The translations under genes were made by a program, and so were the position numbers. A stretch of 64,000 nucleotides of DNA, from assembly GCA_001898625.1 (NCBI GenBank), contig MKUP01000011.1, positions 124,001 to 188,000 of the forward strand. The letters run 5' to 3'. The notes under the pieces were generated by a model, which was not told where the DNA came from, searched no databases, and saw only the letters and a program-made list of their open reading frames with translations. The stretch comes from Burkholderiales bacterium 67-32. GTDB taxonomy: Bacteria > Pseudomonadota > Gammaproteobacteria > Burkholderiales > Burkholderiaceae_B. The first letter of the stretch is position 1; every line of letters starts with the position of its first letter. Of this stretch, positions 1,642-63,718 are shown in pieces.

Positions 1642-1971
1642 ATGAATCTGAGCATCAGCGGACATCACCTCATCGTGACCCCCGCCATACGTGAGTACGT
1701 CCTGAACAAGCTCACGCGGGTGTTGAGGCATTTCGATCACGTCATCGATATCCAGGTGCAGCTTTCCGTGGAAAAGCTGCGCCACAGCGCGGAAATCACC
1801 ATGCATCTCCGAGGCAAGGACGTCCATTGCGAGGCCCAAGAAGAAAACCTATACGCCGCCATCGACGCCCTTGTCGACAAAGTCGACCGACAGGTCATCA
1901 AGTACAAGGACAAGGTCCAGCGACCTCGGGTCGAAGAAGCCATGAAGAGGGTGCCCCCCCCTTCGCCCTAA
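1642..1971 (+). CDS. hpf: Ribosome hibernation-promoting factor Hpf/RaiA family
   Basis: Hpf binds the decoding centre of the 30S subunit in stationary phase and promotes inactive ribosomes. The 109-residue product begins MNLSISGHH and has the beta-alpha-beta-beta-beta-alpha fold pattern of the family: [12 protein letters not shown] in helix 1 and [20 protein letters not shown] in the last helix. It is a short form without the long C-terminal dimerisation domain. The ATG at 1642 is chosen because AAGGAGGG lies at 1628-1635; the frame stays open upstream but without homology. Oddly, the last residues (VPPPSP) and the TAA stop are encoded by the 5' end of a dispersed repeat, so the native C-terminus has probably been rewritten. 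It sits between rpoN and ptsN, its usual place. Confidence 0.95.
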
Positions 1972-2031
1972 AGGGCGCCCCCCAGGGGGCGGCACTGGCG
2001 GACCGGCGGAGCCGGATCCGCTGTGCCCTGG
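1953..2031 (+). repeat. Dispersed structured repeat, copy A
   Basis: Forward copy of the window's REP-like element. It overlaps the end of hpf and supplies its stop codon inside the first stem (CGCCCT at 1964-1969, AGGGCG at 1972-1977). A C-run/G-run stem follows, then a long stem with outer arms GGCAC/GTGCC around the invariant ACCGGC..GCCGGATCC core. Confidence 0.8.
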
Positions 2032-2046
2032 AGTAAAACATCGGCT

Positions 2047-2072
2047 GGCGGGGAAAGGAGGCTTTTCCCGCC
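2047..2072 (+). terminator. Inverted repeat after hpf
   Basis: Arms GGCGGGGAAA and TTTTCCCGCC (9 of 10 pairs) enclose AGGAGG. It lies after the repeat that ends hpf and before the ptsN promoter, so a transcription-terminating role is plausible. There is no clear U-tract beyond the stem. The rest of 2073-2260 shows nothing I can support; a 92-codon open frame there lacks any recognisable feature. Confidence 0.4.
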
Positions 2073-2261
2073 GTTGTAACGTTTAAAGGATGGATTCGCG
2101 TCCAGTTATCGTGATCGGGATCGAGAAATGCCGCGCTGCGCCATGGTTTTCGAGGGCTCGGGTGTTGCCCCGGGTGGGCGCTTCCTTCGTGGGACGAGGG
2201 CATGTGATGCCGGGTCGGGATACGGACGGGTTGTTTGCGGGGCACAAAAGTGCCGCTTTTC

Positions 2262-2289
2262 GTGACAGAACCGGGCCGCTGGCTATAAT
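2262..2289 (+). promoter_or_regulatory. Sigma-70-type promoter before ptsN
   Basis: A -35 GTGACA (5 of 6 to consensus) at 2262-2267, a 16-bp spacer and a perfect -10 TATAAT at 2284-2289. It lies about 75 bp upstream of the ptsN ATG and suggests that ptsN is transcribed independently of rpoN-hpf. Confidence 0.65.
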
Positions 2290-2364
2290 CGACGTCCATC
2301 TCCAAAAGATGTCGCCCGGTCCATCTATTGTGCGAATTTGTATCGCCCGACCGGCGCATACGTT

Positions 2365-2841
2365 ATGAATCTGATCTCGCGGATACTCCCCCCTTCGAAC
2401 GTGCTGCTTGATCTGGAAGTCACCAGCAAGAAGCGCGTTTTCGAACAAGTCGGCCTATTGTTCGAGAATAATCACGGCATCGCCCGCTCGGTGGTGTTCG
2501 ACAGCCTGTTCGCGCGCGAACGGCTGGGCTCGACCGGACTGGGTCAAGGCGTTGCCGTCCCGCACGGCCGCATCAAGGGGCTGACCGATGCGGTGGCCGC
2601 CTTCGTGCGCCTGGCCCAGCCCATCAATTTCGACGCTCCCGATGGCAAGCCCGTGCAGATGCTGGTGTTCCTGCTCGTGCCCGAGCAGGCCACGCAGGTG
2701 CACCTGGAAATCCTGTCCGAGCTGGCGCAGATGCTGTCCAACCGCGCGCTGCGCGAGGCCCTGGTCACCGAGCCCTCGGCCAGCGCGATCCACTCGCTGC
2801 TGACCCACTGGGAACCGGCCCAGTCCGACGCCGCGGTCTGA
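2365..2841 (+). CDS. ptsN: PTS IIA-like nitrogen regulatory protein (EIIA-Ntr)
   Basis: This cytoplasmic phosphocarrier accepts phosphate from NPr/HPr and tunes potassium, nitrogen and stress functions rather than sugar uptake. The 158-residue protein is a single mannitol/fructose-type EIIA domain. The phosphorylated histidine is H67 in the motif VAVPHGRI. The start [10 protein letters not shown] is the conserved family N-terminus; nine upstream in-frame codons look spurious. No strong Shine-Dalgarno is visible before the ATG. It is followed 40 bp later by hprK, whose product may phosphorylate the partner HPr. The coupling of EIIA-Ntr, HPr kinase and RapZ is the typical betaproteobacterial regulatory PTS. 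Confidence 0.96.
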
Positions 2842-2881
2842 TCCGGCCGCGGCCCGGCCGGCCGCCTTTTCCGTGTGCCCC

Positions 2882-3814
2882 ATGCTTACTATCGAAAAAC
2901 TGGTCGACGAGAACACCGACAAGATTTCCTTGAGCTGGCTGGCGGGGCGCTCGAACGCGAACCGCTCGCCGCTGCCCGACACCTGCCTGGCCGCCGCCGA
3001 CCTGGTCGGCCACCTGAACCTCATCCATCCGTCCCGCATCCAGGTCTTCGGCCACGAGGAACTGGCGTTCTACGCCCGGCTGGAAGCCCGCCGGCGCGCC
3101 CATCACCTGGATGAGCTGCTGGCCAGCGGCGTCCCGGCCATCATCATGGCCGACGGCCTGGCCGCCCCGGCCGACCTGCTGGAACACTGCGTACAGCGCA
3201 ATGTGCCGCTGCTGGCCTCGCCCCGCTCAGCGGCGCAGGTCATCGACCTGCTGCGCATCTACCTGGCCAAGAAGCTCGCCCCCGTCACCACCGTGCACGG
3301 CGTGTTCATGGACGTACTCGGCATGGGCGTGCTGATCTCCGGCGAATCCGGCCTGGGCAAGAGCGAACTGGCGCTGGAACTGATCTCGCGCGGCCACGGC
3401 CTGGTGGCCGACGACGCCGTGGAATTCTCGCGCATCGCCCCCAACCTGATCGAGGGCCGCTGCCCGCCGCTGCTGCAGAACATGCTGGAAGTGCGCGGCC
3501 TCGGCCTGCTGGACATCCGCGCGATCTTCGGCGAGACCTCGGTGCGCCGGAAGATGAAGCTCAAGATCATCGTCCACCTGGTCCGCACCACCTCGCCCGA
3601 AGCCAATTTCGAGCGCCTCCCCCTCCAGGCCATGACCCAGGACGTGCTGGCCCTGCCCATACGCAAGGTCGTCCTGCCGGTGGCCGCCGGCCGCAACCTG
3701 GCCGTGCTGGTCGAAGCGGCGGTGCGCAACGCCATCCTGCAACTGCGCGGCATCGACACCATGACCGAGTTCATGGAACGGCAGATGGACGCGATCCAGA
3801 ACGGCGAGCCGTAG
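2882..3814 (+). CDS. hprK: HPr kinase/phosphorylase
   Basis: HprK phosphorylates HPr on a regulatory serine with ATP and removes that phosphate with Pi. The 310-residue protein has the two-domain HprK layout. The C-terminal kinase domain carries the P-loop GESGLGKS (residues 154-161), the acidic segment [13 protein letters not shown] and the family signature [11 protein letters not shown]. The ATG at 2882 (MLTIEKL) is preferred over a GTG three codons upstream. In most proteobacteria with this gene there is no sugar PTS, and HprK works with EIIA-Ntr. The TAG stop is followed two bases later by a copy of the structured repeat. Confidence 0.96.
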
Positions 3815-3816
3815 AG

Positions 3817-3945
3817 CCCCCCCTACGCGCTTCGCGCGCCCCCCACGGGGCGATGCGGGTGGACCGGCGGAGCCGGATCCACCGCATCCTGGGTCTAGTA
3901 CCGCTGTCTTGGATTGTGGTGCCGGTGCTTCGCTGGCTGCCGCGG
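3817..3945 (+). repeat. Dispersed structured repeat, copy B
   Basis: Nearly full-length forward copy starting two bases after the hprK stop. The first stem is ACGCGC-TTC-GCGCG. The second is a C/G-run stem. The long stem has outer arms GATGCGG/CGCATC. The tail GGTCTAGTACCG..TCTTGGATTGTGG is followed by CTTCGCTGGCTGCC, shared with copy C. The remaining 3946-4051 shows no gene. Confidence 0.85.
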
Positions 3946-4051
3946 TAGCAATGGGCTGGCACCGAGCAGGGGAAAGGGGGACAGTTCTGGGAGTGTGCGT
4001 TATTGTTCAGGCTTCGATGAATGAACCTCCCCCTACGAGGCAAAGCCTGCT

Positions 4052-4969
4052 GTGTTACGTGTCGTTTTCATCACCGGTATCTCGGGCTCGGGCAAGTCCG
4101 TGGCTCTTCGTACCCTGGAGGATTTCGGCTACAACTGCGTCGACAATCTTCCCGTCCGCTTTCTGCACGATTTCATCGCGGCCGCGCACGATGAAGGGCT
4201 GCAGCGCGTGGGGGTATCCATCGATGCCCGCTCCAGCGGCGCGATCGCCAATCTGCCCGGCACCATCAACGCGCTGCGCGCGCTGGGTACCGAGATCCGC
4301 GTGGTGTTCCTGGACGCCGACACCGGCACGCTGGTGCAGCGCTATTCGGAATCGCGCCGTCGCCATCCGCTGACCGACAAGCTTTTCCACGAAGGCGTCG
4401 CGCCCTCGGTCGAGGCCTGCATCGCGCACGAGCGCGAGTTGCTGGGGCCGCTGCGCGAGCTGGGGCACGTCATCGACACCACGGGGCTGACGCCCTCGCA
4501 ACTGCGGTCCTGGGTGCGCAACGTGGTGCAGGCCGATACCGTGCCGCTGGTCCTGACCTTCGAGTCGTTCGCATTCAAGGAAAGCGTACCGCTGGACGCG
4601 GACCTGATGTTCGACGTGCGCTGCCTGCCCAATCCCCACTACGACCCGGTCCTGCGGCCGTTGACGGGGCGGGACGCTCCGGTGGCGAACTTCCTGGCGG
4701 CCATCCCCAGCGTGGGACGCATGATCGACGACATCGCCGCCTTCATCCGCACCTGGCTGCCGGAGTACATGCAGGACACGCGCAGCTACCTGACGGTGGC
4801 CATAGGCTGTACGGGCGGCACGCATCGATCGGTCTACGTGGTGGAACAACTGGCCGCCATGTTCGCGGGCCAGGGGCAGGTGCTGGTGCGCCACCGTGCA
4901 CAAAAACAGTTCGACCTTTATGATCCAGGCGGTGGCCCCGCCGAGGCGCCGCCGCTTGCCAGACCTTAG
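4052..4969 (+). CDS. rapZ: RNase adapter / nucleotide-binding protein RapZ
   Basis: RapZ binds small RNAs and delivers them to RNase E; in enterobacteria it controls GlmZ and hence glucosamine-6-phosphate synthesis. The 305-residue protein has the N-terminal P-loop GISGSGKS (residues 9-16), the following ALRTLEDFGYNCVDNLP stretch typical of the family, and the C-terminal GCTGGTHRSV motif in the RNA-binding domain. Translation appears to start at GTG 4052, since MLRVVFITG aligns with family N-termini and an ACGAGG lies at 4035-4040. The link with hprK and ptsN is conserved. Whether the same sRNA targets exist in this organism is not known from sequence. Confidence 0.95.
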   Translation: MLRVVFITGISGSGKSVALRTLEDFGYNCVDNLPVRFLHDFIAAAHDEGLQRVGVSIDARSSGAIANLPGTINALRALGTEIRVVFLDADTGTLVQRYSESRRRHPLTDKLFHEGVAPSVEACIAHERELLGPLRELGHVIDTTGLTPSQLRSWVRNVVQADTVPLVLTFESFAFKESVPLDADLMFDVRCLPNPHYDPVLRPLTGRDAPVANFLAAIPSVGRMIDDIAAFIRTWLPEYMQDTRSYLTVAIGCTGGTHRSVYVVEQLAAMFAGQGQVLVRHRAQKQFDLYDPGGGPAEAPPLARP

Positions 4970-4987
4970 CATCCAGGACCCTAGACG

Positions 4988-6067
4988 ATGAAGCAGACCG
5001 ACCGGCCCCTCCTGCCTGGCGCGCGCCCCACCAGCCGCCGCCCACCGCGCGGGAGGACCGAAGGTCTCCTGCTCTGGACGGCGGTCTGCGCCACGGTACT
5101 CCTGGCCGCCTGCGGCACCACGCCCAAGGGGTCGTCGGGATCGGGTTCGCGCGGCGGCGGCTACTACAAGGACGACGGCCCGCCGTCCAATCCGCCCGCC
5201 AACCTGGACCTGGTGCCCGATCCGCTACCGGCCGTGGAACCGCTGGCCAGCGGCGCGAACAAGCCCTATGTGATTTTCGGCAAGCGCTACGTGCCCGACA
5301 CCTCCATGCAACCCTACAAGGTGCGCGGCACCGCGTCGTGGTACGGCCGCAAGTTCCATGGCGCGCGCACGTCGAACGGCGAGATCTACGACATGTACGC
5401 GATGACCGCGGCCCATACCACGCTGCCCATCCCCAGCTACGCCCGCGTCACGCGGGTCGGGACCGGCAAGTCGGTGATCGTGCGCGTGAACGACCGCGGC
5501 CCCTTCCACAGCGACCGCATCATCGATCTTTCCTACACGGCCGCCTACAAGCTGGGCCTGCTCTCGCAGGGCAGCGGCGAAGTCGAGGTCGAATGGCTGG
5601 GGCCGGAGGAAATCGCCAGGATCCGCAGCGAACGCGGCAACGCCCCCATGCTGGCCGCGGCGCCCGCGCCGGTGGCCGAGGCCGAGGTGGTCGCCATCCC
5701 GGTGGCCACGCAGGCACCGGCCAGCCAGGTACGGGAGCTGCCGCCGCTGGCTTCCGCCTCTGCCAGCCCCGCGCCCATGGCGGGCGGCGTGCAGGTCCCC
5801 CTGACGGCCACCACGCCGGTGGTCTCGACGCCGCAATCGGGCATCTTCCTGCAAGTGGGCGCCTTCAGCGGCCAGCGCAACGCCGAGGACCTCGCGGCCC
5901 GGATCCGGACCCAGTTGGGGGACCAGACCGAACCGCTGCGCATCGTGAACACCGACAGCCTGCACCGCGTGCACCTGGGCCCCTACCCCTCGCGCGAGAG
6001 CGCGCTGGCCGCCGCGCAGCGCGTGCAGGCCAGGCTGGACATCGCCCCGGTCATCGTCGTGCGCTGA
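4988..6067 (+). CDS. rlpA: RlpA-family septal-ring lytic transglycosylase lipoprotein
   Basis: RlpA proteins are outer-membrane lipoproteins that act on glycan strands lacking stem peptides at the division site. Residues 26-42 form a signal sequence with lipobox LLAAC (Cys42), so the mature protein is lipidated. A double-psi beta-barrel domain at about 112-205 contains ASWYGRKFHGARTSNGE, VRVNDRGPF and RIIDLSY, including the catalytic-site Asp of the family. An Ala/Pro-rich linker leads to a C-terminal SPOR domain (about 280-358, GIFLQVGAFSGQRNA) that binds denuded peptidoglycan. The N-terminus is long and basic. It ends 13 bp from the convergent MFS gene. Enzyme activity is inferred from family, since not all RlpA proteins are active. 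Confidence 0.93.
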   Translation: MKQTDRPLLPGARPTSRRPPRGRTEGLLLWTAVCATVLLAACGTTPKGSSGSGSRGGGYYKDDGPPSNPPANLDLVPDPLPAVEPLASGANKPYVIFGKRYVPDTSMQPYKVRGTASWYGRKFHGARTSNGEIYDMYAMTAAHTTLPIPSYARVTRVGTGKSVIVRVNDRGPFHSDRIIDLSYTAAYKLGLLSQGSGEVEVEWLGPEEIARIRSERGNAPMLAAAPAPVAEAEVVAIPVATQAPASQVRELPPLASASASPAPMAGGVQVPLTATTPVVSTPQSGIFLQVGAFSGQRNAEDLAARIRTQLGDQTEPLRIVNTDSLHRVHLGPYPSRESALAAAQRVQARLDIAPVIVVR

Positions 6068-6080
6068 CGGGGCGCCAGCG

Positions 6081-7337
6081 CTATTCCAGTTCGCCGCCCT
6101 TGGTCTCGGGCAGGAAGAAATACACGATGACCGCGGCCAGCGCGAAGAATCCGGCGGTGGCTCCCAGGGCGCTCGCGACGCCATGGGTGGCCGAGAAAAA
6201 GCCCACCGCGGCCGGCGCCAGCGCGCTGGTGGCCCGGCCGGTGTTGTAGATGAAGCCCTGCGCGGTCGCGCGGATGCTGGTCGGGAACAACTCGGCGAAG
6301 GTGGGCGCGAAACCGCTGTAGAAACCCGTGCCCACGAAGGCGACCAGCGGCCCGAACGCCAGCAGCACCAGGCTGGACTCGATCTGCACGTACAGCGGCA
6401 CGCACACGGCCGAGAGCAGGAAGAACAGGATGAAGGCCATGCGGCGGCCGATCCGGTCGGCGATGTAGCCGAAGCAGATGAAGCCCAGCGCCGCGCCCAC
6501 CTGCATGACGACGATCCAGGTCGTGGACTTGGTCAGGTCCAGGCCGGCGCCGCCCGCGCTGACGGGGGTGGCCAGATAGGTCGGGATCCACGTGAACAGC
6601 CCCCAGTAGCCGCACATGGCCGCGGCGGTGAACGCCAGGCCGACCACCGTGCTGCGCAAATGCTGGCCGAACAGCAGCTTGAGCGTGGCCCCGACGCCCA
6701 GGCGCTCTTTCTGGCTCGTCCAGATCTCCGGCTCGGACGCATGGCGGCGCACCCAGAACGCGAACAGCGCGGGCACCAGCCCGACCGCGAACACCCAACG
6801 CCAGCCCAGCGTGGGCAGCACCAGCGCCGCGACGATGGCGGCCAGCGCGTAGCCGGCGGCGAAGGCGCTCTGCACCCAGGCCATGACCTTGCCGCGGTGC
6901 TTGGCCGGCCACGTTTCGGTGACCAGGGCCGCACCCGCCGACCATTCCCCGCCCACCCCCAGTCCCAGCAGGAAACGGAAGATCAGCAACTGCGTGACGT
7001 TCTGCGAGAAACCGCACAGGGCCGTGCCGATGGAATAGCACGCGATGCTGAGCACCAGCGACCGCGTCCGCCCCAGCCGGTCGGCCAGAAAGCCGAAGAT
7101 CAGGCCGCCGAAGGCCGTGGCCAGCAGCGTCATCGAGGCAATGACGCCGGCTGCGCCGCTGTCGAAATTCAGTTCGGCCCGCATCTGCGTGATCACCATG
7201 GCGAACAGCATCAGATCCATGATGTCCAGCATCCAGCCTATGTAGGCCGAACCGAACGCGCGCCATTGTTCCTTGGTACGCCCTACGTACCATTTTTCCT
7301 GGGCCACGCCGGATAGCGAGGTCGCGGAGGATGCCAT
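6081..7337 (-). CDS. MFS transporter (aromatic/organic acid:H+ symporter type)
   Basis: This is a twelve-helix inner-membrane importer of about 418 residues in the major facilitator superfamily. Typical motifs are GWMLDIMDLMLFAM in helix 1 (the acid pair of the anion:H+ symporter groups), GFLADRLGRTR in the loop between helices 2 and 3, and RFLLGLGVGGEWSAGA in helix 4. The start MASSATS is chosen over an earlier ATG because AAGGAG lies just before it. Substrate is unknown; the motifs suggest a carboxylate. It is divergent from a bicupin gene across a palindrome-rich promoter region, with an IclR regulator following, so the three genes probably serve one compound. Confidence 0.85.
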   Translation of the reverse strand: MASSATSLSGVAQEKWYVGRTKEQWRAFGSAYIGWMLDIMDLMLFAMVITQMRAELNFDSGAAGVIASMTLLATAFGGLIFGFLADRLGRTRSLVLSIACYSIGTALCGFSQNVTQLLIFRFLLGLGVGGEWSAGAALVTETWPAKHRGKVMAWVQSAFAAGYALAAIVAALVLPTLGWRWVFAVGLVPALFAFWVRRHASEPEIWTSQKERLGVGATLKLLFGQHLRSTVVGLAFTAAAMCGYWGLFTWIPTYLATPVSAGGAGLDLTKSTTWIVVMQVGAALGFICFGYIADRIGRRMAFILFFLLSAVCVPLYVQIESSLVLLAFGPLVAFVGTGFYSGFAPTFAELFPTSIRATAQGFIYNTGRATSALAPAAVGFFSATHGVASALGATAGFFALAAVIVYFFLPETKGGELE

Positions 7338-7353
7338 GCTTCGTCTCCTTGAT

Positions 7354-15841: not shown

Positions 15842-16816
15842 ATGCCCGTATCCACCCGTCTGGCTGCCACCGGCATCGTTGCCACGCTTGCCCTGGCTGT
15901 CGCCTCGCCTGGCCAGGCCCAGGACTATCCCAGCCGTCCCATCCGCGTCATCGTTCCCTATTCGGCCGGCGGCGGCGCGGACAATGCGGCGCGGGTGATC
16001 GCGCAGCGGCTGGGGACGGCGCTGCATACGCAGGTCGTGATCGACAACCGGCCGGGCGCCAGCGGCATCATAGGCGCGCAGGCGGTGGTCCAGGCGGCGC
16101 CGGACGGCTATACCGTGCTGTACGACGCGTCCACCTACGCGGTGAACCCCGCGCTGCGCAAGATGCCCTTCGACCCGGACAAGGACCTCGTGCCCGTGTC
16201 GCTGGCGATCACGGTGCCGAACATCCTGGTCGTCCACCCCGACGCCCCCTACAAGAGCTTCAAGGAATTCGTGGACTACGCGCGCCAGCATCCGGGCAAG
16301 GTCAGCTACGCCTCGTACGGCGCCGGCAGCCCCGCCCATCTGGTGGGCGAACTGCTGAAGAGCCAGGCCGGGATCGACATGCTGCACGTACCCTACAAAG
16401 GCGGTGCTCCGGCGCTGGCCGATGTCATGGGCGGACAGGTGAACGCCTATTTCGCCAACGCCGCCTCGGGCCTGTCCTACGTCCAGTCCGGCCGCCTCAA
16501 GGCGCTGGCCGTCACCTCCGCCAAGCGCATGGCCGCGCTGCCCGACACGCCCACCATCGCGGAAAACGGCTTCAAGAACTTCGAAGTGCTGGAATGGAAC
16601 GGCTTCTTCGTACCCAAGGGCACGCCGGCTGCCGTGGTCGACCGCCTGGCGCGGGAGGTCAAGGCCGCGGTCCAGGATCCGGACACCCGCGCCAAACTGA
16701 ACAAGCTCGGCCTCGACACCGTCGGCAGCACGCCGGCCGAATTCGCCGGCTTCATCCAAGGGGAGACCCGCCGCTGGAAGGACTTGGCGCGGACAAACAA
16801 GATCACGGTGGAGTAG
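15842..16816 (+). CDS. Bug-family periplasmic solute receptor (TctC type), copy 2
   Basis: A 324-residue paralogue of the preceding gene. It has a signal peptide ending near GQAQDYP and the landmarks YPSRPIRVIVPYSAGGGADNAARV, VIDNRPGASGIIGA and SYGAGSPAHLVGELLKSQAGIDMLHVPYKG. The frame is open far upstream, but the ATG at 15842 starts the signal peptide. Two adjacent Bug genes under one regulator suggest either two related ligands or a relaxed duplication. Its TAG stop is directly abutted by a truncated copy of the structured repeat. Confidence 0.93.
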   Translation: MPVSTRLAATGIVATLALAVASPGQAQDYPSRPIRVIVPYSAGGGADNAARVIAQRLGTALHTQVVIDNRPGASGIIGAQAVVQAAPDGYTVLYDASTYAVNPALRKMPFDPDKDLVPVSLAITVPNILVVHPDAPYKSFKEFVDYARQHPGKVSYASYGAGSPAHLVGELLKSQAGIDMLHVPYKGGAPALADVMGGQVNAYFANAASGLSYVQSGRLKALAVTSAKRMAALPDTPTIAENGFKNFEVLEWNGFFVPKGTPAAVVDRLAREVKAAVQDPDTRAKLNKLGLDTVGSTPAEFAGFIQGETRRWKDLARTNKITVE

Positions 16817-16928
16817 GGGCGCCCCCCAGGGGACGATGCGGGTGGACCGGCAGAGCCGGATCCACCGCATCCTGGGTCTAGGGCCTTTATCTTTGATTGG
16901 GGCGCATGCGCTTCGCTGGCTGCCAGCA
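16817..16928 (+). repeat. Dispersed structured repeat, copy C (5' truncated)
   Basis: It begins at the base after the Bug-2 stop, lacks the first stem, and keeps the C/G-run stem and the long stem with GATGCGG/CGCATC arms. The tail contains TCTTTGATTGGGG and CTTCGCTGGCTGCC, shared with copy B. The rest of the gap to 16999 shows no gene. Confidence 0.8.
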
Positions 16929-33300: not shown

Positions 33301-33315
33301 GCCATCTCCTCAGAT

Positions 33316-33418
33316 CCCCCCTACGCGCTTCGCGCGCCCCCCAGGGGGCGATGCGGGCGGACCGGCAAAGCCGGATCCACCGCATCCTGAGTCTAGTACG
33401 GATATCTTGGATTGTGGC
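33316..33418 (+). repeat. Dispersed structured repeat, copy D
   Basis: Full-length plus-strand copy between dacC and dat. Stem 1 is ACGCGC-TTC-GCGCG, then the C/G-run stem, then the long stem with GATGCGG/CGCATC arms and tail GTCTAGTACGGATATCTTGGATTGTGG. It forms an inverted pair with copy D' only 10 bp away. Confidence 0.85.
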
Positions 33419-33427
33419 AACGGAGAG

Positions 33428-33530
33428 CCAATCCAAGAGGCTGGTACCAGACCCAGGAAACCGCGGATCTGGCTTTGCCAGTCCGCCGGTTTCGCCCCCT
33501 GGGGGGCGCGCGTCAGCGCGTAGGGGGGGA
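33428..33530 (-). repeat. Dispersed structured repeat, copy D'
   Basis: Minus-strand copy that begins 8 bp after the dacC stop and reads in the sense of dacC. Its first stem is ACGCGC-TGA-CGCGCG. The long stem is degenerate (CCGGCGGACTGG / CCAGATCCGCGG) compared with other copies. Together with copy D it makes a large imperfect palindrome filling the 238-bp dacC-dat gap. Confidence 0.8.
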
Positions 33531-33538
33531 CCTCAACT

Positions 33539-34789
33539 TCAATTGAACCAAAGGCGAACCGCGTCGAACGCCCGGCCGAAGATGCCGGCCACGTCCACCG
33601 GCTCGAGCACGGTCAGCGGCACTTCGCGCACCGGCTTGTCGTTCAGGGTCAGCTTGACCGTGCCCACCTGCTGGCCGGCCTGCAGCGGCGCGACCAGCGG
33701 ATCGGTGCGTTCGATGGTGGACTTGACGTTGCCGGCCTGGCCGCGCGGCACGGTCACCCAGATCGCCGACGGCGAACCCAGCTTCGCCTTGCCCACGCTG
33801 CCCTTCCAGACCTTGGGCTCCACCACCGCCTGCTTGGCGTCGTAGACCTTGACGGTATCGAAGTTCTGGAAGCCCCAGTTCAGCAGCTTCAGGCTTTCCT
33901 GCGCCCGGGCGTTCTCGCTCGAGGCGCCCACCAGCACCGTCAGCACGCGGCGGTCGCCGCGCATGGCCGAGGCGATCAGGCAGTAGCCCGCGGCATCGGT
34001 ATGGCCGGTCTTCATGCCATCCACCGACGGATCCACCCACAGCAGCCGGTTGCGGTTGGGCTGGGTGATCTTGTTGTAGGTGAACTGGCGTTCCTTGTAG
34101 TAGCCGTAGTAGTCGGGATGATCCTGGATCAGCCGCTTGGCCAGCAGGGCCAGGTCGCGCACGGTGGTCACGTGCTGCGGATCGGGCAGGCCCGTGGAGT
34201 TGGTGAAGTGCGTCTCCTTCAGGCCCAGGCGCGTGGCCTCCTGGTTCATCAGCGCGACGAACGCGTCTTCGCTGCCGGCCACGGCCTCGGCCAGCGCCAC
34301 GGTGGCGTCGTTGCCGGACTGCGTGATCATGCCGCGGATCAGTTCTTCGACCGTGACGGGCTTGCGCGGCTCGATGAACATGCGCGAACCGCCGGTGCGC
34401 CACGCCTTCTGCGACACGTTGACCGTTTGGGCCAGCGTCAGGCGTTTTTCCTTGAGCGCGTTGAACACCAGATAGGCCGACATGACCTTGGTGAGCGAAG
34501 CGGGCTCGATGCGTTCACCCGAGCGTTCCTCGGCCAGGACCTGGTCGCTGGTGACGTCGATGGTCACCCAGGCGCGCGCCGCGATTGCCGGCGCCGGCAC
34601 GGAGGACAACAGGCCGACGGTCGACATCGGCGGTGCGGACGGCGTCGCGGCCGAAGTGGTGGCAGGAGGCGCGGCGGCGGCCAGGGCGGAGGAAGGCACG
34701 GCGGCCGGGAACGCGAGGAAGCAAGCGGAAGCCACGGTGGCCAGCGCGAACCGACGTCCCGGACCAAACGAGAAAAAGCGCAGTTTCAT
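33539..34789 (-). CDS. dacC: D-alanyl-D-alanine carboxypeptidase (PBP5/6 family)
   Basis: This low-molecular-weight penicillin-binding protein trims the terminal D-Ala from peptidoglycan stem peptides. The 416-residue protein has an N-terminal signal peptide ending near SALAAAA, an Ala/Pro/Thr-rich linker, and the three active-site motifs: S98-L-T-K101, S158-G-N160 and K260-T-G262. A C-terminal PBP5-like beta domain and an amphipathic end (AFDAVRLWFN) anchor it to the membrane. It leads the dat-ybeD-lipB-lipA group, though two repeats in the following gap may uncouple it. The upstream gap 34790-34969 shows nothing clear. Confidence 0.95.
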   Translation of the reverse strand: MKLRFFSFGPGRRFALATVASACFLAFPAAVPSSALAAAAPPATTSAATPSAPPMSTVGLLSSVPAPAIAARAWVTIDVTSDQVLAEERSGERIEPASLTKVMSAYLVFNALKEKRLTLAQTVNVSQKAWRTGGSRMFIEPRKPVTVEELIRGMITQSGNDATVALAEAVAGSEDAFVALMNQEATRLGLKETHFTNSTGLPDPQHVTTVRDLALLAKRLIQDHPDYYGYYKERQFTYNKITQPNRNRLLWVDPSVDGMKTGHTDAAGYCLIASAMRGDRRVLTVLVGASSENARAQESLKLLNWGFQNFDTVKVYDAKQAVVEPKVWKGSVGKAKLGSPSAIWVTVPRGQAGNVKSTIERTDPLVAPLQAGQQVGTVKLTLNDKPVREVPLTVLEPVDVAGIFGRAFDAVRLWFN

Positions 34790-43621: not shown

Positions 43622-43665
43622 CCACTAGGCCCAGGATGCGGTGGATCCGGCTGCGCCGGTCAGGG
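43622..43665 (-). repeat. Partial dispersed repeat, copy E-
   Basis: Minus-strand fragment of the long stem and CTAG tail (CTAGGCCCAGGATGCGGTGG.. CCGGCTGCGCCGGTC). It directly precedes copy E+, suggesting a nested or rearranged repeat cluster between the toxin-antitoxin pair and mucD. Confidence 0.7.
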
Positions 43666-43679
43666 AAGCCCACCCCCAA

Positions 43680-43770
43680 GCGGCCTTTGGCCGCTCCCCC
43701 TCAAGGGGCGGCCCTGGCGGACCGGCAAAGCCGGATCCGCGGCGCCCCGGGTCTAGTACCGGTTTCTTGG
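43680..43770 (+). repeat. Dispersed structured repeat, copy E+
   Basis: Plus-strand copy with a diverged first stem (CGGCC-TTT-GGCCG) and a long stem with outer arms GGCCC/GGCGCC around the invariant CGGACCGGC..GCCGGATCCG core. The tail GGTCTAGTACCGGTTTCTTGG points towards copy F. The outer arms differ from other copies on both sides. Confidence 0.8.
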
Positions 43771-43836: not shown

Positions 43837-43921
43837 ACTAGACCCAGGATGCGGTGGATCCGGCTCCGCCGGTCCACCCGCATCGCCCCCTGGGGGGCGC
43901 GCGTCAGCGCGTAGGGGGGGA
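43837..43921 (-). repeat. Dispersed structured repeat, copy F
   Basis: Minus-strand full copy, inverted relative to E+ and ending at the base before the CTTAAG box of mucD. Long stem arms are GATGCGG/CGCATC; first stem ACGCGC-TGA-CGCGCG. Copies E+ and F make a paired head-to-head unit like REP-based BIMEs. Confidence 0.85.
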
Positions 43922-57248: not shown

Positions 57249-58007
57249 TCAGAAACAGAGGTACAGGCCCAGGAGGCCGAGCCCCGTGAAGAACCCCCGG
57301 CGGAACGCCGCGGGGCTGATGCGGTGGCGCAGGACCTGGCCCGCCCACATGCCCGCCATGGCCGGCACCAGGGCCACCAGGGACGCCGCCATCTGCTGGT
57401 AGCCCAGGGCGCCGCCGCGCGCCAGCGCCACGGCCAGCGCCAGCGTCGAGACCGTGAAGGCCATGCCCAGCGCCTGCACCAGTTCGTCCTTGGCCAGGCC
57501 CAGCGCCTGCAGGTAGGGCACGGCGGGTATCACGAACACTCCGGTGGCAGCGGTCACCGCGCCGGTCGCCAGGCCGGCCAGCCCGCCCAGCCGGCGCTCC
57601 GCGCCGGGCGGCACGCGCAGTTGGAAGGCCATCAGGCCGAAGGCCGCGTACAGCACCAGCGCCACGCCCAGCGCCCGGACCGCCCAGGGCTGCGACCCCG
57701 TTCCGGCCAGCGCCGCCGTCAGCCAGGTGCCGGCCACCACGCCGGCCAGCAGGGGCCACAGCCGCCTGGCCAGGTGCACGAAGCGCCCGCCGGCGGCCAG
57801 TTGCCAGACGTTCGTCACCATGGAGGGCACCACGAGCAGCGCCGCGGCCTGCGCCGGGGCCATGGCCAGGCCCAGCAGCCCCATGGCGACGGTGGGCAGC
57901 CCCAGGCCGATGACGCCCTTGACGGCGCCGGCCACGAAGAAAGTACCGAGGATGAGAAGGATCAGGGGCCAGCTGGCCGCGGAGTACGTCGAGAGCAAGG
58001 AGTCCAT
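57249..58007 (-). CDS. TauE/SafE (TSUP) family permease
   Basis: A 252-residue membrane protein with seven to eight helices in two repeats typical of TSUP transporters: GAVKGVIGLGLPTVAMGLLGL in the first half and GLATGAVTAATGVFVIPAVPYLQALGL in the second. The family exports or moves sulfite, sulfoacetate, taurine or other organosulfur anions. ATG 58007 is preferred to 58025. It is encoded on the same strand as, and 85 bp after the end of, ubiB but probably unrelated to it. Confidence 0.87.
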   Translation of the reverse strand: MDSLLSTYSAASWPLILLILGTFFVAGAVKGVIGLGLPTVAMGLLGLAMAPAQAAALLVVPSMVTNVWQLAAGGRFVHLARRLWPLLAGVVAGTWLTAALAGTGSQPWAVRALGVALVLYAAFGLMAFQLRVPPGAERRLGGLAGLATGAVTAATGVFVIPAVPYLQALGLAKDELVQALGMAFTVSTLALAVALARGGALGYQQMAASLVALVPAMAGMWAGQVLRHRISPAAFRRGFFTGLGLLGLYLCF

Positions 58008-58092
58008 GGCGCCATGCTGCCGCAAGCCGCGCCGGCTGGAAATGCGGATTACGCGGATCCAGCCTTCGGAAAATCCGGAGCCGGGAACCCGG

Positions 58093-59646
58093 CTAGCGGG
58101 CGACCGCCCACAGCGCCACGGCCACGCCCACCGCCAACACGCCGGCGATCACCGCCATCAGGCGATTGGTCTGCTGCTGGGCGGCCCGCAGGCGCTGCAG
58201 TTCGGCCAGGGTATCGGCGGAACGATCCGGGCGGGCCAATTGATGATGCACCAGGCGCGGCAGTTCGGGCAGCATCCGCGCCCACTGCTGCGACTCGCGC
58301 CGGAGGTTGTTGCGCAGCGCCGCCCAGCCGACGCGCTCGTGCATCCAGCGCTCGAGATAGGGCTTGGCCGTCTTCCACAGGTCCAGCGAGGGATCCAGTT
58401 CGCGTCCCAGGCCTTCGACGTTGAGCAGCGTCTTCTGCAGCAGCACCAGTTGCGGCTGGATCTCGACGTTGAAACGGCGCGAGGTCTGGAACAGGCGCAG
58501 CAATACCTGCCCCAGCGAGATCTCGGCCAGGGGCCGGTCGAAATAGGGTTCGCAGCAGGCCCGGATCGCGCCTTCGAGTTCTTCCTCGCGCGTGCCGGGC
58601 GGTACCCATCCGGACTCGATGTGCAGGCGGGCGACCTGGCGGTAGTCGCGCCGGAAGAAGGCCAGGAAGTTCTGCGCCAAGTAGTTCTTGTCGAACTCGG
58701 ACAGCGAACCGACGATGCCGAAATCAAGCGCGATGTAGCGCCCCAGCGTGCGCGGATCGTCCGACACGTAGATGTTGCCCGGGTGCATGTCCGCGTGGAA
58801 GAAGCCGTCCGCGAACATCTGGGTGAAGCAGATCTCCACGCCGTCCCGCGCCAGCTTCTTCAGGTCCACGCCGGCCTCGACCAGCCGCTCGGCATGATTG
58901 ACGGGGATGCCGCGCATGCGCTCCATCGTGAAGATGGACGAGGAGCAATAGTCCCACATCACTTCCGGCACGATCAGCAGGTCGCCGCGGGGCCCGTCGG
59001 GGGCGAAGTTGCGGCGCAGCTGGCTGCAGTTGGCCGCCTCGCGCAGCAGGTCGAGTTCGTCGTGCAGGTATTTGTCGAACTCGGCCACCACCTCGCGCGG
59101 CTTCAGGCGCCGTCCGTCGGCCGAGATCTTCTCGATCAGCGTGGCCGCCGCCCGCAGCAGCCGCAGGTCCTTGTCGATCACCGGCGCCATGTTGGGCCGC
59201 AGCACCTTCACCGCCACGTCGCGGCCGTCCTTGAGCACCGCGAAATGCACCTGCGCGATCGAGGCCGAGGCCACCGGTTCGCGCTCGAAGCTGGCGAACA
59301 GTTCATCCGGGTGCCGGCCCAGTTCCTTGCGGATGCTGGCGATCGCCACCTCGGACGGAAACGGCGGCACGCGGTCCTGCAGGCGCGCCAGTTCGTCGGC
59401 GATGTCCGCCGGGATCAGGTCGCGCCGCGTCGACAGCACCTGGCCGAACTTGACGAAAATCGGGCCGAGCGTCTCCAGCGCCAGGCGCAGCCGCTCGCCA
59501 CGCGGCGCATGCAGCTTGCGGCCCAGCCGCATCACGACCAGCAGGCGCTCGGTCCAGGGATGCCGGATGCCGGAGATCACGAGTTCGTCCAGGCCGTAGC
59601 GGAAACTGACGAACATGATGCGGATCAGGCGCAGGAAGGTGAACAT
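58093..59646 (-). CDS. ubiB: UbiB ubiquinone-biosynthesis kinase-like protein
   Basis: UbiB is an ABC1/ADCK atypical kinase needed for coenzyme Q synthesis, possibly by extracting lipid precursors from the membrane. The 517-residue protein shows the KxGQ motif ([16 protein letters not shown]), the Ala-rich nucleotide loop [17 protein letters not shown] with the active Lys, the catalytic HADMHPGNI and the metal DFG (ALDFG). One strong C-terminal membrane helix ([22 protein letters not shown]) anchors it. It follows ubiJ by 3 bp. Confidence 0.96.
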
Positions 59647-59649
59647 GGC

Positions 59650-60279
59650 CTAGCCCTCCGCGCCCAGGCGGGTTTCGAGCCGGGCCAGCCGCGTCAGCAG
59701 GTGCTCGACCCGCTTGCCCGCGCGCTCGGCGTCGTCGCGCAGTCGCCGCACCTCGCCCCCCCAGGCCTGCAGCGCGTGCGAGGACGCCACCGCCCCGCTT
59801 TCCTCGGTCAGGTACTCCGCCACGTTCTCGGCCAGCCGCCAGGCGCCGGCGCGCAGCCCGTCCGCCACGCCCCGCGCCGTACGGACCAGGCGGGCGGCGG
59901 GTATGTCGCCGACGACCCCGGCCAGGTCTTCTTCCACGTCCCAGCGCAGATCCCGCGCCAGGTCTCCCAGCACGTGGGCCAGCGCCGCATCGCCCTCGAT
60001 GCGCACCGCCCCCATCCGGCGGGCGGCATCGCCCGAGAGCAGCTCCGGCAGCCTGCCGCCATCGACGGTCAGGGTCACGTCGGGCACGACATCCGCGGCG
60101 GCGGCCTCGACCAGGCCTTGCGGGGTGATCGTCAGCGTCATGCTCAGGGAGCCGGCGGCCAGGCGGGCTGTCTTGCCGGCATGCTGGCGCAGCCGCTCGC
60201 GGGCCCAGGGTTCGCGCAACAGCAGCGTATCGAGCGCCCGGATGGCGGCGGCGGAAGGGTACGGCAGGGACACGGGCAT
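59650..60279 (-). CDS. ubiJ: UbiJ, SCP2-domain ubiquinone accessory factor
   Basis: UbiJ holds lipid intermediates and scaffolds the soluble ubiquinone complex. The 209-residue protein has an SCP2-like domain (about residues 10-115: ALDTLLLREPWARERLRQHAGKTARL, SMTLTITPQGLVEA, DVTLTVDGGRLPELLSGD, RIEGDAALAHVLGDLARDLRWDVEEDLAGVVGDI) followed by a coiled-coil-like C-terminus rich in Arg/Leu heptads (EVRRLRDDAERAGKRVEHLLTRLARLETRLG). The start at 60279 gives the conserved N-terminus. It is tightly coupled to ubiB. Confidence 0.92.
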   Translation of the reverse strand: MPVSLPYPSAAAIRALDTLLLREPWARERLRQHAGKTARLAAGSLSMTLTITPQGLVEAAAADVVPDVTLTVDGGRLPELLSGDAARRMGAVRIEGDAALAHVLGDLARDLRWDVEEDLAGVVGDIPAARLVRTARGVADGLRAGAWRLAENVAEYLTEESGAVASSHALQAWGGEVRRLRDDAERAGKRVEHLLTRLARLETRLGAEG

Positions 60280-60334
60280 AGGATGCGAGACGGAAACCAG
60301 TAAGGAGAACCGACCGGCGATCCGGCCTGCCAAT

Positions 60335-60362
60335 GAAAAACGCCCGTCCGAGGACGGGCGTT
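60335..60362 (-). terminator. Rho-independent terminator after the Tim44-like gene
   Basis: On the minus strand the transcript reads AACGCCCGTC / GACGGGCGTT with a 4-nt loop and then TTTTT-type residues. It starts 24 bp after the Tim44-like stop and lies before ubiJ, so ubiJ-ubiB need a promoter of their own. Confidence 0.85.
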
Positions 60363-60385
60363 CCACGGGGTTCGACCCCGCAAGT

Positions 60386-61366
60386 TTACCGGTTGTGTTC
60401 CTGCACCGGGATCTGCTGCACGCCGGCCAGCAGCCAGCCGCCGTCGTTGGGCTTGAACAGGTTCCAGACTTCCTCGAAGCGGAACGCCTCGGTGCCCGGG
60501 GCCTCGCGCAGCATGCCGGAGAAGCGGACGCTGGCGAGGTGGCCGTCGGAGACGGTCTCGATGCCAAGCAGTTCCGCGTTCAGCAGTACCACCTCGGTCA
60601 CGTTCTGCCCCTGGCGCTGGCCGATTTGCTGGCTGAGTTCGGCCAGCAGGTCGTCGGTGACCCGATCGCGCAGTTCGCTCAAGTCGCCACGGTCCCAGAC
60701 GCCTTGCAACTGCACGAAATAGCTCTTCGCATGGCTGAGGAAATTCGCGGCGTCGAAATCGCTGGGAATGCCCCACTCACCGGTGGGGGCAGGCCCCGCG
60801 GCGGCCAAGGAAGCGGCAGGCACGGCCGCCGGCGCGGCAGCCGCGGGCGCCACCGATTCGCGCGCCATGGGGGCGGGCGGCTCGTTGCGCTGCTGGAAGC
60901 GGCTGTTGCCCGCGCTCTGGAGCGCCGGTTGCTGGCCGACGCCGCGCAGCCGGCGAACGATGAACAGCACGGCGAAGATGGCCAGCGCGATGAGCAGCAG
61001 GCTGCCGATGAACTCGGCCGCGGCAGCGCCCAGGCCGAAATGCGACAGCAGGGCCGCCAGGCCCAGGCCGGCGGCGATGCCGGCGATGGGGCCCAGCCAG
61101 CGCGACATGCCGCTGCGCGCGGCGGTGGCGCCGGCGGCGGCCCCCGCTGCGGCAGGAGCGGCCGACGGCGCGGCCTGCTGGTTCTGCTGGGGAGTGCGCG
61201 CCGGCGGCGTCGCCTGCCGCTGCGTCACGTTGCTGGACTGGCGGCCCATGCTGCCGCCCCCGCCCAGGCGCTTGGCCAGGGCGTCATGCGAGACGCCCAG
61301 CATGGCCACGGTCGATACGGCGATGACCAGAGCCGGGATGAACCTGGAAAAAAATCGTCGAGACAT
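60386..61366 (-). CDS. Tim44-like domain membrane protein
   Basis: A 326-residue protein with an N-terminal signal or anchor (FIPALVIAVSTVAMLGVSHDALA), a low-complexity Gly/Gln/Ala-rich segment (about 35-85), two hydrophobic helices (about 90-140) and a C-terminal Tim44-like/calponin-type domain (about 200-326: DFDAANFLSHAKSYFVQLQGVWDRGDLSELRDRVTDDLLAEL; VWNLFKPNDGGWLLAGVQQIP). The mitochondrial Tim44 domain binds lipids and tethers Hsp70; bacterial members have no agreed role. Between ubiE and ubiJ it is a conserved betaproteobacterial insertion. Confidence 0.88.
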   Translation of the reverse strand: MSRRFFSRFIPALVIAVSTVAMLGVSHDALAKRLGGGGSMGRQSSNVTQRQATPPARTPQQNQQAAPSAAPAAAGAAAGATAARSGMSRWLGPIAGIAAGLGLAALLSHFGLGAAAAEFIGSLLLIALAIFAVLFIVRRLRGVGQQPALQSAGNSRFQQRNEPPAPMARESVAPAAAAPAAVPAASLAAAGPAPTGEWGIPSDFDAANFLSHAKSYFVQLQGVWDRGDLSELRDRVTDDLLAELSQQIGQRQGQNVTEVVLLNAELLGIETVSDGHLASVRFSGMLREAPGTEAFRFEEVWNLFKPNDGGWLLAGVQQIPVQEHNR

Positions 61367-61601
61367 TGTGTGGATTCTCCTGTAATCAATGTCGTGGCGC
61401 CGCCCTGCCGGCCCCGATACCGGGTCTGCCTGGCAGCGTGGGCGCCATTGCTGTCAGGTGGGGATGCCCGGCGCCGCGACGCCCCCGCAGACGGGCGGTC
61501 GTAGCAGCCTTTCCTGACAATAAGCTGAAATTTAACGGACTATGGCGCAAATCGCCAGTCGGAACGCCCCGGATTCGCGAAGGAATTTGCAACAAGGGAA
61601 G

Positions 61602-62378
61602 CTACAGCCGCACGCCCTCGTGCAGGGCGACCACCCCGGCGGTCAGATTGAAATATTGGACACGCGCCAGGCCGGCCTGTTCCAGCATGCCGGCCAGGGT
61701 GTCCTGATCCGGGTGCATGCGGATGGATTCGGCCAGGTAGCGGTAGCTGGCCTCGTCCTGGGCCACCTTGCGCCCCAGCCAGGGCAGGATGTTGAACGAA
61801 TACCAGTCGTAGGCCGCCCGCAGCGGCTTGGCGACCCGGGAGAACTCCAGCACCAGCAGCTTGCCGCCGGGCCGCAGCACCCGCGTCATCTCGGCCAGGG
61901 CCCGATCCTTGTGGGTCATGTTGCGCAGCCCGAACGCTACCGAGACGCGGTCGAAATACCCGTCCGGGAAAGGCAGCTTCTCGGCGTCGCAGACGGCGGT
62001 GGGCAGCATCAGCCCCGCATCCAGCATCCGGTCCCGCCCCACGCGCAGCATGGAATCGTTGATGTCGGTCAGCCAGACCTCGCCGGTGGGCCCGGCGCGC
62101 CGGGCGAAGGCCTTGGCCAGATCGCCAGTGCCGCCCGCGATGTCCAGCACCTTCATGCCCGGGCGCACGCCGGCGCGGGCCACGGTGAATACCTTCCAGG
62201 CCCGGTGCATGCCGCCGGACATCAGGTCGTTCATGACGTCGTAGCGCGCGGCCACCGAGTGGAAGACCTCGGCCACCTTGCGCGCCTTGTCGGTCTCGGC
62301 CACCTGCTGGAAGCCGAAATGGGTCGTGCCCGGCGGCGTGTCGCCAGCCGGTGCGGAGGAGTGCTGCTTATCGCTCAT
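61602..62378 (-). CDS. ubiE: UbiE/COQ5 C-methyltransferase
   Basis: UbiE methylates demethylmenaquinone and the benzoquinol ring in ubiquinone synthesis with SAM. The 258-residue protein has [34 protein letters not shown] at the start, SAM motif [28 protein letters not shown], post-[27 protein letters not shown] and the C-terminal [17 protein letters not shown] block. The ATG overlaps the DUF971 gene stop as ATGA. The 235-bp gap 61367-61601 before the Tim44-like gene shows no gene. Confidence 0.96.
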
Positions 62379-62800
62379 TGCTTACCTTCACGGCGTACGT
62401 CGGTTGTTGCCATCCCGCCCTGGGGCTCGGGATCCCGCGAGGCCCCCGCCGCTTCCAGCGCGGCGAGATACTCCGCCCACAGGCGGTCCTGGTCGCGGCC
62501 CAGCGCATACAGGATGTCCCACGAATAGATCCCGGTCGAATGCCCGTCGGAGAACCGGGGCTGGACCGCGTAGTTGCCTACTGGCTCCAGCGAGACGAGG
62601 TCCACGTCGCGCTTGCCCACCTGCAGCGTCTCCTGTCCCGGCCCGTGGCCCCGGACCTCGGCCGAGGGGCTGTAGACACGCAGCAGCTCGAAAGGCAGCC
62701 GGAAACTGCTGCCGTCGTCGAAGGCGACCTCCAGCGTCCTGGACTGCCTGTGCACGACGATATTGGTGGGGAGAGGGGTATTCTTGTCCAGGCCAGCCAT
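62375..62800 (-). CDS. DUF971 / gamma-butyrobetaine hydroxylase-like N-domain protein
   Basis: A 141-residue protein of the DUF971 family, which corresponds to the N-terminal zinc-binding-type domain of gamma-butyrobetaine hydroxylase but lacks the oxygenase part. Conserved segments are [73 protein letters not shown] and [14 protein letters not shown] start eight codons upstream (62824) is possible; neither has a clear Shine-Dalgarno. It is translationally coupled with ubiE. Bacterial members are linked to Fe-S cluster or Q metabolism only by context. Confidence 0.86.
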
Positions 62801-62876
62801 GTTGTTCTCGCGTAGGGACTCCATGGTAGCCGATGGGGGCCGCGGCCGCGCCGGAGGCCTTCCCAGGGGCCGGATC

Positions 62877-62894
62877 ATGTCACATACCTGAAAC
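62877..62894 (+). promoter_or_regulatory. Candidate Pho box before phoB
   Basis: ATGTCAC-ATAC-CTGAAAC has the 7-4-7 layout of the CTGTCAT-N4-CTGTCAT Pho box. TACTAT at 62905-62910 is a possible -10, exactly 10 bp after the box. This fits autoregulation of phoB by PhoB. Confidence 0.5.
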
Positions 62895-62942
62895 AATACC
62901 GCCATACTATGGACATGCTTCAGCAACCCAACCGGCATATCC

Positions 62943-63638
62943 ATGTCCAGCACTATTTTAGTCGTCGAAGACGAACCGGCCATCCAGGAGCTGGTCTCGG
63001 TCAACCTGTCCTTCGCGGGCCACAAGGTCCTGCGCGCGGCTGATGCCGAACAGGCCCAGACCTTGATCCGGGCCGAACTCCCCGACCTGATCCTGCTCGA
63101 CTGGATGCTGCCCGGCACCTCGGGCGTATCGCTGGCCCGCAAGCTGCGGACCGAGGAGCGCACCAAGGCCGTTCCCATCATCATGCTCACCGCCAAGGGC
63201 GCCGAGCAGGACAAGGTCGACGGCCTGGAGGCCGGCGCCGATGATTACATCACCAAGCCGTTCTCGCCCAAGGAACTGATGGCCCGCATCAAGGCCGTCC
63301 TGCGGCGGCGCGCGCCCCAGCTGACCGACGACCTGATCGACGTCGCCGGGCTGCGGCTGGATCCGGTCACCCACCGGCTCAATGGCAACGGCGTGACGCT
63401 GAACATCGGCCCCACGGAGTTCCGCCTGCTGCACTTCTTCATGACCCACCCCGAGCGCGTGTTCTCGCGTTCGCAGTTGCTGGACCAGGTGTGGGGCGAC
63501 CACGTCTTCGTCGAAGAGCGTACGGTGGACGTGCACATCCGGCGCCTGCGCAAGGCCCTGGAGCCCAGCAAGCACGACGGCCACGTGGAGACCGTGCGCG
63601 GCAGCGGCTATCGCTTCACCGCGCATCCTGTAGGCTAA
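62943..63638 (+). CDS. phoB: Phosphate regulon response regulator PhoB
   Basis: PhoB activates phosphate-starvation genes when phosphorylated by PhoR. The 231-residue OmpR-type regulator has the acidic pair at residues 10-11, phosphorylation site D53 (LLDWMLPGTSG), K105 (ITKPFSPKELMARI) and the DNA-binding region FRLLHFFMTHPERVFSRSQLLDQVWGDHVFVEERTVDVHIRRLRKAL, ending RGSGYRF. This DNA-binding helix is the PhoB signature. A structured repeat follows the stop immediately, then phoR. Confidence 0.95.
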   Translation: MSSTILVVEDEPAIQELVSVNLSFAGHKVLRAADAEQAQTLIRAELPDLILLDWMLPGTSGVSLARKLRTEERTKAVPIIMLTAKGAEQDKVDGLEAGADDYITKPFSPKELMARIKAVLRRRAPQLTDDLIDVAGLRLDPVTHRLNGNGVTLNIGPTEFRLLHFFMTHPERVFSRSQLLDQVWGDHVFVEERTVDVHIRRLRKALEPSKHDGHVETVRGSGYRFTAHPVG

Positions 63639-63639
63639 T

Positions 63640-63718
63640 CCCCCCCTACGCGCTGACGCGCGCCCCCCAGGGGGCGGCACGGGCGGACCGGCGAAGCCGG
63701 ATCCGCCGTGCCCTGGAA
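63640..63718 (+). repeat. Dispersed structured repeat, copy G
   Basis: Full forward copy beginning one base after the phoB stop. First stem ACGCGC-TGA-CGCGCG, then the C/G-run stem, then the long stem with outer arms GGCACGGGCGG / CCGCCGTGCC. It has the same arm type as copy A, differing on both sides from copies B, D and F. Confidence 0.85.

Follow-up and report, generated by a model that had tools for sequence, protein, structure and literature searches.

REP-like three-hairpin repeats located close behind stop codons in a Pigmentiphaga genome and in related bacteria

Repetitive extragenic palindromic (REP) elements are the closest described relatives, in behaviour, of the repeat family reported here. 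Ribosomes of Escherichia coli can reportedly be stalled by a REP that follows a stop codon within 15 nt (PMC12306157). Strains bearing a gene for the REP-associated tyrosine transposase (RAYT) are reported to have about tenfold more REPs than rayt-free ones (PMC2817692); both statements are from the accessible parts of these papers. Another candidate is BRE, a GC-rich beta-proteobacterial repeat of about 90 bp, which was first described in Bordetella and is also present in Comamonadaceae; the accessible part of its account gives 8-22 copies in four Bordetella genomes and states that the function needs further investigation (PMC3110155). The family analysed here was noticed in a stretch of 64,000 nt (C11:124001-188000, contig MKUP01000011.1; hereafter the window, with a GC content of 68%) from Burkholderiales bacterium 67-32, a soil bacterium of the genus Pigmentiphaga (Alcaligenaceae) with a genome of 6.66 Mb in 34 contigs; the genus follows from its LexA, which is 99-100% identical to those of Pigmentiphaga kullae K24 and Pigmentiphaga sp. 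NML030171. The units of the family are folded into three hairpins and are mostly located close behind the stop codons of genes on the same strand. We give about an even chance to the reading that they are REP-like structured mRNA 3'-end elements, acting at translation termination and in 3'-end protection and spreading independently of RAYT.

The unit is about 78 nt long and contains, in order on the sense strand, six or seven consecutive C residues, the hairpins H1, H2 and H3, and CTGGG. H1 is formed by CGCGC..GCGCG, with the variants CGCCC/GGGCG and CCCGC/GCGGG, and H2 by CCCC..GGGG. H3 has a 16-bp stem with six outer pairs, a bulged G, five pairs, a bulged A on the 3' side, five inner pairs and a triloop. 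Statistics for the host genome cover 1.28 of the 6.66 Mb, namely 864 kb (the window together with two long stretches of contig) and 40 further stretches that were picked for containing units. In this part 137 units were found, 128 with a complete 5' end and nine without it. H3 could be parsed in 126 of them (11 left out), of which 120 retain the bulged G and all 126 the bulged A, the pattern for the latter having admitted A or C only. Gene ends for all position counts were obtained by a codon-usage gene caller trained for this analysis, not from annotation. Only three of the 128 5'-complete units are inside gene calls, i.e. the family is extragenic, and the other 125 were kept for the position counts.

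Placement relative to stop codons is non-random. A sense gene 3' end is located upstream of 95/125 units, as compared with 38.8% expected at random intergenic points (p 4e-17), and 81/125 units start 0-16 nt past the sense stop, as compared with 5.6% expected at such points (p 4e-69) and with 16 units expected when strand and place are randomized in the same spacers. At seven more units the start is at -16, where the gene ends at a stop within the H1 loop, and 0/125 units start 17-61 nt past a sense stop, the gap after 0-16 nt being sharp. As controls, the 3' ends of units are within 16 nt of a convergent stop in 7/125 cases and of a start in 0/125, and their 5' ends are within 16 nt of a start in 10/125. 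At the 108 sites that are flanked by two genes, convergent orientation was recorded 26 times versus 10% of bases, and divergent orientation four times versus 32% of intergenic bases. Units within 20 nt of a sense stop were also counted elsewhere, giving 16/19 in the genus Bordetella, 8/8 in family f49, 4/7 in one metagenome-assembled genome (MAG), 8/16 in P. litoralis and a relative, and 26/55 in other family members, of which 52/55 are behind a sense gene end; the remaining units of the last set are largely the second and later ones of tandem arrays, and arrays are present in the P. litoralis set too. These counts omit 5'-incomplete units (4/12 in f49, 2/21 in Bordetella and one in each other set, by which G326 lost its sole unit), and the sets overlap in that L061, L330 and L337 represent one array, L076 and L284 represent one place, and several of the Bordetella loci seem to be orthologous.

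Base pairing in the stems was compared with shuffled controls in three sets, A1 (25 units, 23 distinct), A2 (37 units of other genomes) and A4 (70 units). In A1, 98.6% of cells are paired versus 90.4% after shuffling, and both sides are changed in 8/25 pairs. Both sides are changed in 16/25 pairs in A2, where all measures exceed all 500 shuffles, and in 18/25 pairs in A4, where 97.7% of cells are paired versus 85.9% in the shuffled control and 36-50% after sliding. Because a model of the tested structure guided the alignment of A2 and A4, these two sets are biased towards it. In addition, at least five of the six outer H3 pairs are kept by 121/126 parsed units, as compared with a mean of 72 and a maximum of 91 in 1000 re-dealings of the arms. 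The proposal of the initial annotation that selection acts on a folded strand is thus supported by A1, A2, A4 and the arm-dealing test, and the covariation persists in larger alignments. The matched arm changes that it described hold across genera; within the host genome they represent mostly a few stem types, four arm combinations accounting for 102/126 parsed units, so that independent compensations within one genome are few and the argument is carried by the cross-genus set. The variation thus amounts to a handful of coexisting stem types inside one genome and to repeated compensation across genera. On the sense strand 48 G.U pairs versus 12 A.C mismatches were counted, which is modest evidence that this is the strand that folds.

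The units occur singly and in composites. Some carry a 3' tail, and a composite consists of two inverted units flanking a palindromic middle. The 109 sites recorded in the host genome comprise 87 single units, 16 inverted pairs and six triplets; the two-unit sites (n=16) span 141-346 bp, eight of them measuring 243-246 bp, and inverted pairs are commoner than direct arrays among the clusters. The halves of a composite are mostly of unlike stem type, GATGCG with GAAACC being the leading combination (8/22 plus-minus neighbours). Numerous matches to the composite of about 243-250 bp were found in other Pigmentiphaga genomes. Direct tandem arrays are present in other species, at L290 of P. litoralis (1262-1577, four units, about 81 bp), L061 (1501-2040, 124 bp) and L078 (1414-1705, 87 bp). 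All three begin at or near a stop codon, and the linker repeat of P. litoralis ends with TAG or TAA directly before the next C-run.

A dispersed family, as the initial annotation had supposed, is upheld by the copy number. Profile search of the 864 kb yielded 33 units (best expectation value (E) 2.3e-21), and a covariance model applied to the whole genome yielded at least 150, all 150 scored candidates being matches. The total for the host genome is estimated at about 200 units, because 24 of the 33 units in the 864 kb fall among the 150. In a scan of the family, made with stricter filters on up to 39 candidates per genome, the element was present in at least 21/121 genomes and at least 7/43 genera, including all five Pigmentiphaga genomes drawn. 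Of 16 genomes chosen via named loci, six were positive, with at least 150 units each in P. kullae, NML030171 and NML080357, 43 in P. litoralis, 35 in a Burkholderiaceae MAG and five in Bordetella ansorpii; no units were detected in the other ten, including B. hinzii, three Comamonas and Polaromonas sp. CG9_12. With a broader model and up to 19 candidates scored in each genome, at least 8/250 genomes across the order were positive, from three families. Carriage by plasmids or phages was considered and rejected, since the element matched 1/72,556 plasmids (PLSDB) and 0/50,697 phages. The plasmid match, which is partial, is in RPME01 of Methylibium petroleiphilum (L049 3001-3056) and lies antisense within a gene annotated as a transposase. 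No autonomous parent, i.e. inverted units around a gene-sized interior, stood out by eye in an informal inspection of the coordinates of 150 units.

Action at translation termination together with 3'-end protection is favoured because the limit of 0-16 nt agrees with the distance at which translational effects are described in the accessible part of PMC12306157. Under this reading, the hairpins would be located in the mRNA at the downstream edge of the terminating ribosome, and by analogy with the stop-proximal REPs of E. coli (up to 15 nt away) they would stall or slow terminating ribosomes and tune expression. They may also block 3' exonucleases, by which the upstream message would be expressed differently from the downstream part, and inverted composites could serve two convergent genes. 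Copies would be spread and exchanged by a route without RAYT/Y1 transposase, to which recombination between copies probably contributes through swaps of stem type, reversal of composites and growth of tandem arrays.

Several results weigh against such a role in the mRNA. Seven of the 125 units are at least 62 nt from the sense stop, and 30/125 have a gene start instead of a gene end upstream; some units without a nearby sense stop may be missed gene ends. The pair-type count of A1 is not above that of the shuffles (412/500 as high). When the two commonest wobble positions were excluded, G.U versus A.C fell to 17 versus 6 (p 0.035), in a test that is weak and that includes related, non-independent sequences. 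Furthermore, TAG is the stop at 42/81 unit-bearing ends versus 196/813 genes (p 5e-7), and it also precedes 10/40 units without a called gene end nearby, as compared with 6.3% of background 12-mers; this enrichment is more easily reconciled with specific insertion than with selection on translation.

The TAG enrichment favours the main rival explanation, in which the repeat is selfish and inserts specifically at gene ends, being placed at the stop by a recombinase or copying process that often rewrites the last codons; the position would then represent targeting and tolerance, without function in the mRNA. The at least 150 dispersed copies are in keeping with it, as is unit presence or absence varying between species about 92-96% identical. 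So are the polymorphic sites: at five of six the unit abuts a sense gene and the sequences diverge beginning at the stop or a few codons before it, the C-terminus being changed in 3/5 and unchanged in 2/5. Against the rival, by-eye inspection of the six sites revealed no target-site duplication and no clean empty site, the spacer itself being replaced (at window position 16812 a relative keeps an apparent unit remnant, and the site is therefore not truly empty), and no candidate enzyme was found. Moreover, a decaying repeat would lose the cross-genus pairing, which copying from a master copy could also keep. Taken together, the selfish element is considered possible, if rather improbable.

In comparison with G124 and G123, which are about 95% identical, sites are mostly shared and their contents altered. 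Behind hprK, four genomes have four versions, namely GATGCG with tail, GAAACC, GGCGCT and a hybrid in G125. In this hybrid (the site corresponding to window 3800-3990) the 5' and 3' arms are of different types and the outer stem is mismatched, apparently a record of exchange via the common core. At the composite C22:139863 (C22:139868-140110, L035/L036) the order of the two stem types is reversed in G124, which looks like an inversion of the entire 245-bp element. The composite at 33315-33529 is common to G124, and one unit is present there in G123 and G073 and one plus a partial unit in G125. Such turnover suggests exchange by recombination in the shared core, and in addition either that insertion at gene ends is imprecise or that entire spacers are imported. 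It is regarded as unlikely, though worth stating, that the family is a mobile structured element aimed at the termination codon, replacing the gene end and able to supply a C-terminus and stop from its hairpin loop without the known REP transposases.

Mobilisation by RAYT, which had been proposed in the initial annotation, was not supported by searches for PF01797 (RAYT/Y1). No match was obtained in the host genome (controls matched in 5/14), nor in the four other Pigmentiphaga genomes scanned. Across the same 121 family genomes PF01797 is present in 22 and the element in at least 21, and both are present only in G081, as compared with about 3.8 co-occurrences expected by chance. This 1/21 co-occurrence, set against the tenfold excess of REPs in rayt-bearing strains, is the opposite of the REP-RAYT pattern. 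A classical REP/REPIN family mobilised by RAYT (TnpA-REP) would explain the extragenic imperfect palindromes with bulges, the estimated 200 copies and the inverted doublets making a long hairpin; besides the PF01797 results, a unit of 78 nt with three hairpins and the excess of singles over doublets (87/109 sites) speak against it. This explanation is strongly disfavoured and is held to be very improbable indeed. By this result, a REP/REPIN-like family would be able to multiply and to be maintained without RAYT, and another route of spread should then exist.

The possibility of a transcription terminator, bidirectional as a composite and either Rho-assisted or non-canonical, was also raised by the position of the units at sense gene ends, with few divergent (4/108) and many convergent (26/108) sites; the C-rich 5' end and the very stable hairpins would be expected to pause polymerase. 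TTTT was found close behind H3 in 0/109 parsed units (28/137 were left out of this test). Two units in the window are between hpf and ptsN and between hprK and rapZ, in a cluster that looks like the conserved rpoN-hpf-ptsN-hprK-rapZ and is probably co-transcribed, and one in a Bordetella-genus genome is between rpoA and rplQ. Since T-runs are absent and units are within likely operons, an obligatory terminator is unlikely; within rpoN-hpf-ptsN-hprK-rapZ or rpoA-rplQ it would be costly. A preference for operon ends was likewise considered, unit-bearing spacers seeming long (median 118 versus 29), and was rejected, because tandem spacers with a unit (residual median 118) do not exceed the length-weighted control (192). 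The canonical intrinsic type suggested by the initial annotation is thus not supported, and the broader terminator explanation is judged decidedly unlikely.

In the window itself, all nine copies reported earlier are present where they had been placed, and profile search found nine units in the window, six of them complete and three partial or diverged (16817, 43622 and 43680) (Table 1); both inverted pairs likened to bacterial interspersed mosaic elements (BIMEs) are real. The ACCGGC core had been called invariant, and this did not hold, the copy at 33452 having ACTGGC/GCCAGATCC versus ACCGGC/GCCGGATCC elsewhere; the change is paired, CG to UA, in 13/69 distinct sequences. Five copies had also been said to start at or near a sense stop: the 3'-end position stands, with the exception that in unit A the stop is inside the unit. 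The frame of hpf, the gene for the ribosome hibernation factor, enters the repeat there (1940-2060) and, by eye, stops at TAA or TGA in the H1 loop in the host genome, G124, G123 and G125. Unit A therefore supplies the last residues and the stop of hpf, and its C-run encodes a proline-rich tail added to the hpf product. The tail of unit B runs to about 3945 and resembles the middle of the composite form. Rfam at gathering score gave no matches in the window.

Table 1. Repeat units and composites in the window (positions of the 64,000-nt stretch)
Feature	Position	Strand	Remarks
Unit A, complete, GGCACT/TGTGCC	1955..2032	+	overlaps hpf 3' end (PF02482); hpf stop TAA 1969-1971 in H1 loop
Unit B, complete, GATGCG/CGCATC	3817..3893	+	3 nt past hprK stop; hprK = PF07475/PF02603
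Unit C, lacking H1, its 5' part absent or diverged	16817..16881	+	directly behind TctC-family gene stop 16814-16816
Unit D, complete, GATGCG	33315..33391	+	plus-strand half of composite 33315-33529
Unit E (earlier D'), complete, GAAACC, ACTGGC/GCCAG core	33452..33529	-	10 nt past stop of D-Ala-D-Ala carboxypeptidase gene (33539-34627, -)
Composite of two inverted units, unlike stem types, middle shortened	33315..33529	.	shared with G124
Partial unit, 3' half alone, GATGCG/CGCATC judged from 3' arm	43622..43665	-	sequence and profile search
Unit F, 5'-diverged, GGCCCT/GGCGCC, H2 variant CCCCTCAAGGGG	43672..43758	+	profile search and arm parsing
Unit F2, complete, GATGCG	43843..43920	-	profile search
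Composite with palindromic middle TTGCTACCGCTGGCAGCCAGCGACAGCAA	43697..43919	.	G123: one unit there, matching the right-hand one
Unit G, complete, GGCACG/CGTGCC	63640..63717	+	2 nt past stop of response-regulator gene (62943-63638)

Among known systems, the family most resembles the REP, BIME and REPIN elements of E. coli and Pseudomonas, which, in the accessible parts of their accounts, are high-copy extragenic imperfect palindromes with hairpin-forming inverted doublets and tandem clusters, many of them close behind stops (PMC3116915, PMC2817692, PMC12306157). It differs in its 78-nt unit with three hairpins, whereas a REP of 20-40 bp has one palindrome, in the lack of RAYT in the five Pigmentiphaga genomes scanned, and in doublets that often join two different stem types. 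Despite its like behaviour it is not classed as a REP/REPIN member, because it departs from that class in RAYT association and in size. The GTAG-/CGTC-tagged palindromic repeats, for which roles in termination or mRNA stabilisation are discussed in the accessible part of PMC3733652, are also small palindromes, of 20-40 bp, unlike the 78-nt unit. In the present family the motif GTAG was found in -14..-3 of 25/88 stop-adjacent and 4/40 other units against a background of 1.7%, at variable distance and confounded by the stop codons. With BRE, as far as the accessible part of PMC3110155 extends, the family has in common a length of about 90 bp, GC-richness, a mostly intergenic position, few-base overlap of open reading frame ends and occurrence in Alcaligenaceae and Comamonadaceae. 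Direct tandem arrays with a unit of 75-91 bp, as in BRE, are present at L290 and L078, the unit of L061 being longer. In contrast, covariation, stop-codon position and inverted composites are absent from that part of the BRE account. Within the genus Bordetella, units were found in 5/15 genomes by model R1 and in 6/15 by model R2 at E up to 0.5 (one at 0.13), 1-11 units each, among the best 150 candidates per genome, whereas BRE has its 8-22 copies in four. The two families may overlap, which is plausible but unproven, the comparison having been made by description and not by sequence. In the open-licence papers searched no account was found of the covariation, stop-codon docking or composite form of this family, nor of repetitive palindromes in Pigmentiphaga. 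The effect of a hairpin at a stop codon is directly testable in this family, which offers an estimated 200 natural copies and, at the same gene ends, stem types that have been swapped naturally. Finally, 88/125 units are within 16 nt of a stop when the stops in the H1 loop are included, and a like bias is seen in further genera and in a second family, while the stop-adjacent share of E. coli REPs is a tenth to a half by census, 446/4,072 in the accessible part of PMC12306157 and 260/496 in another census cited there.

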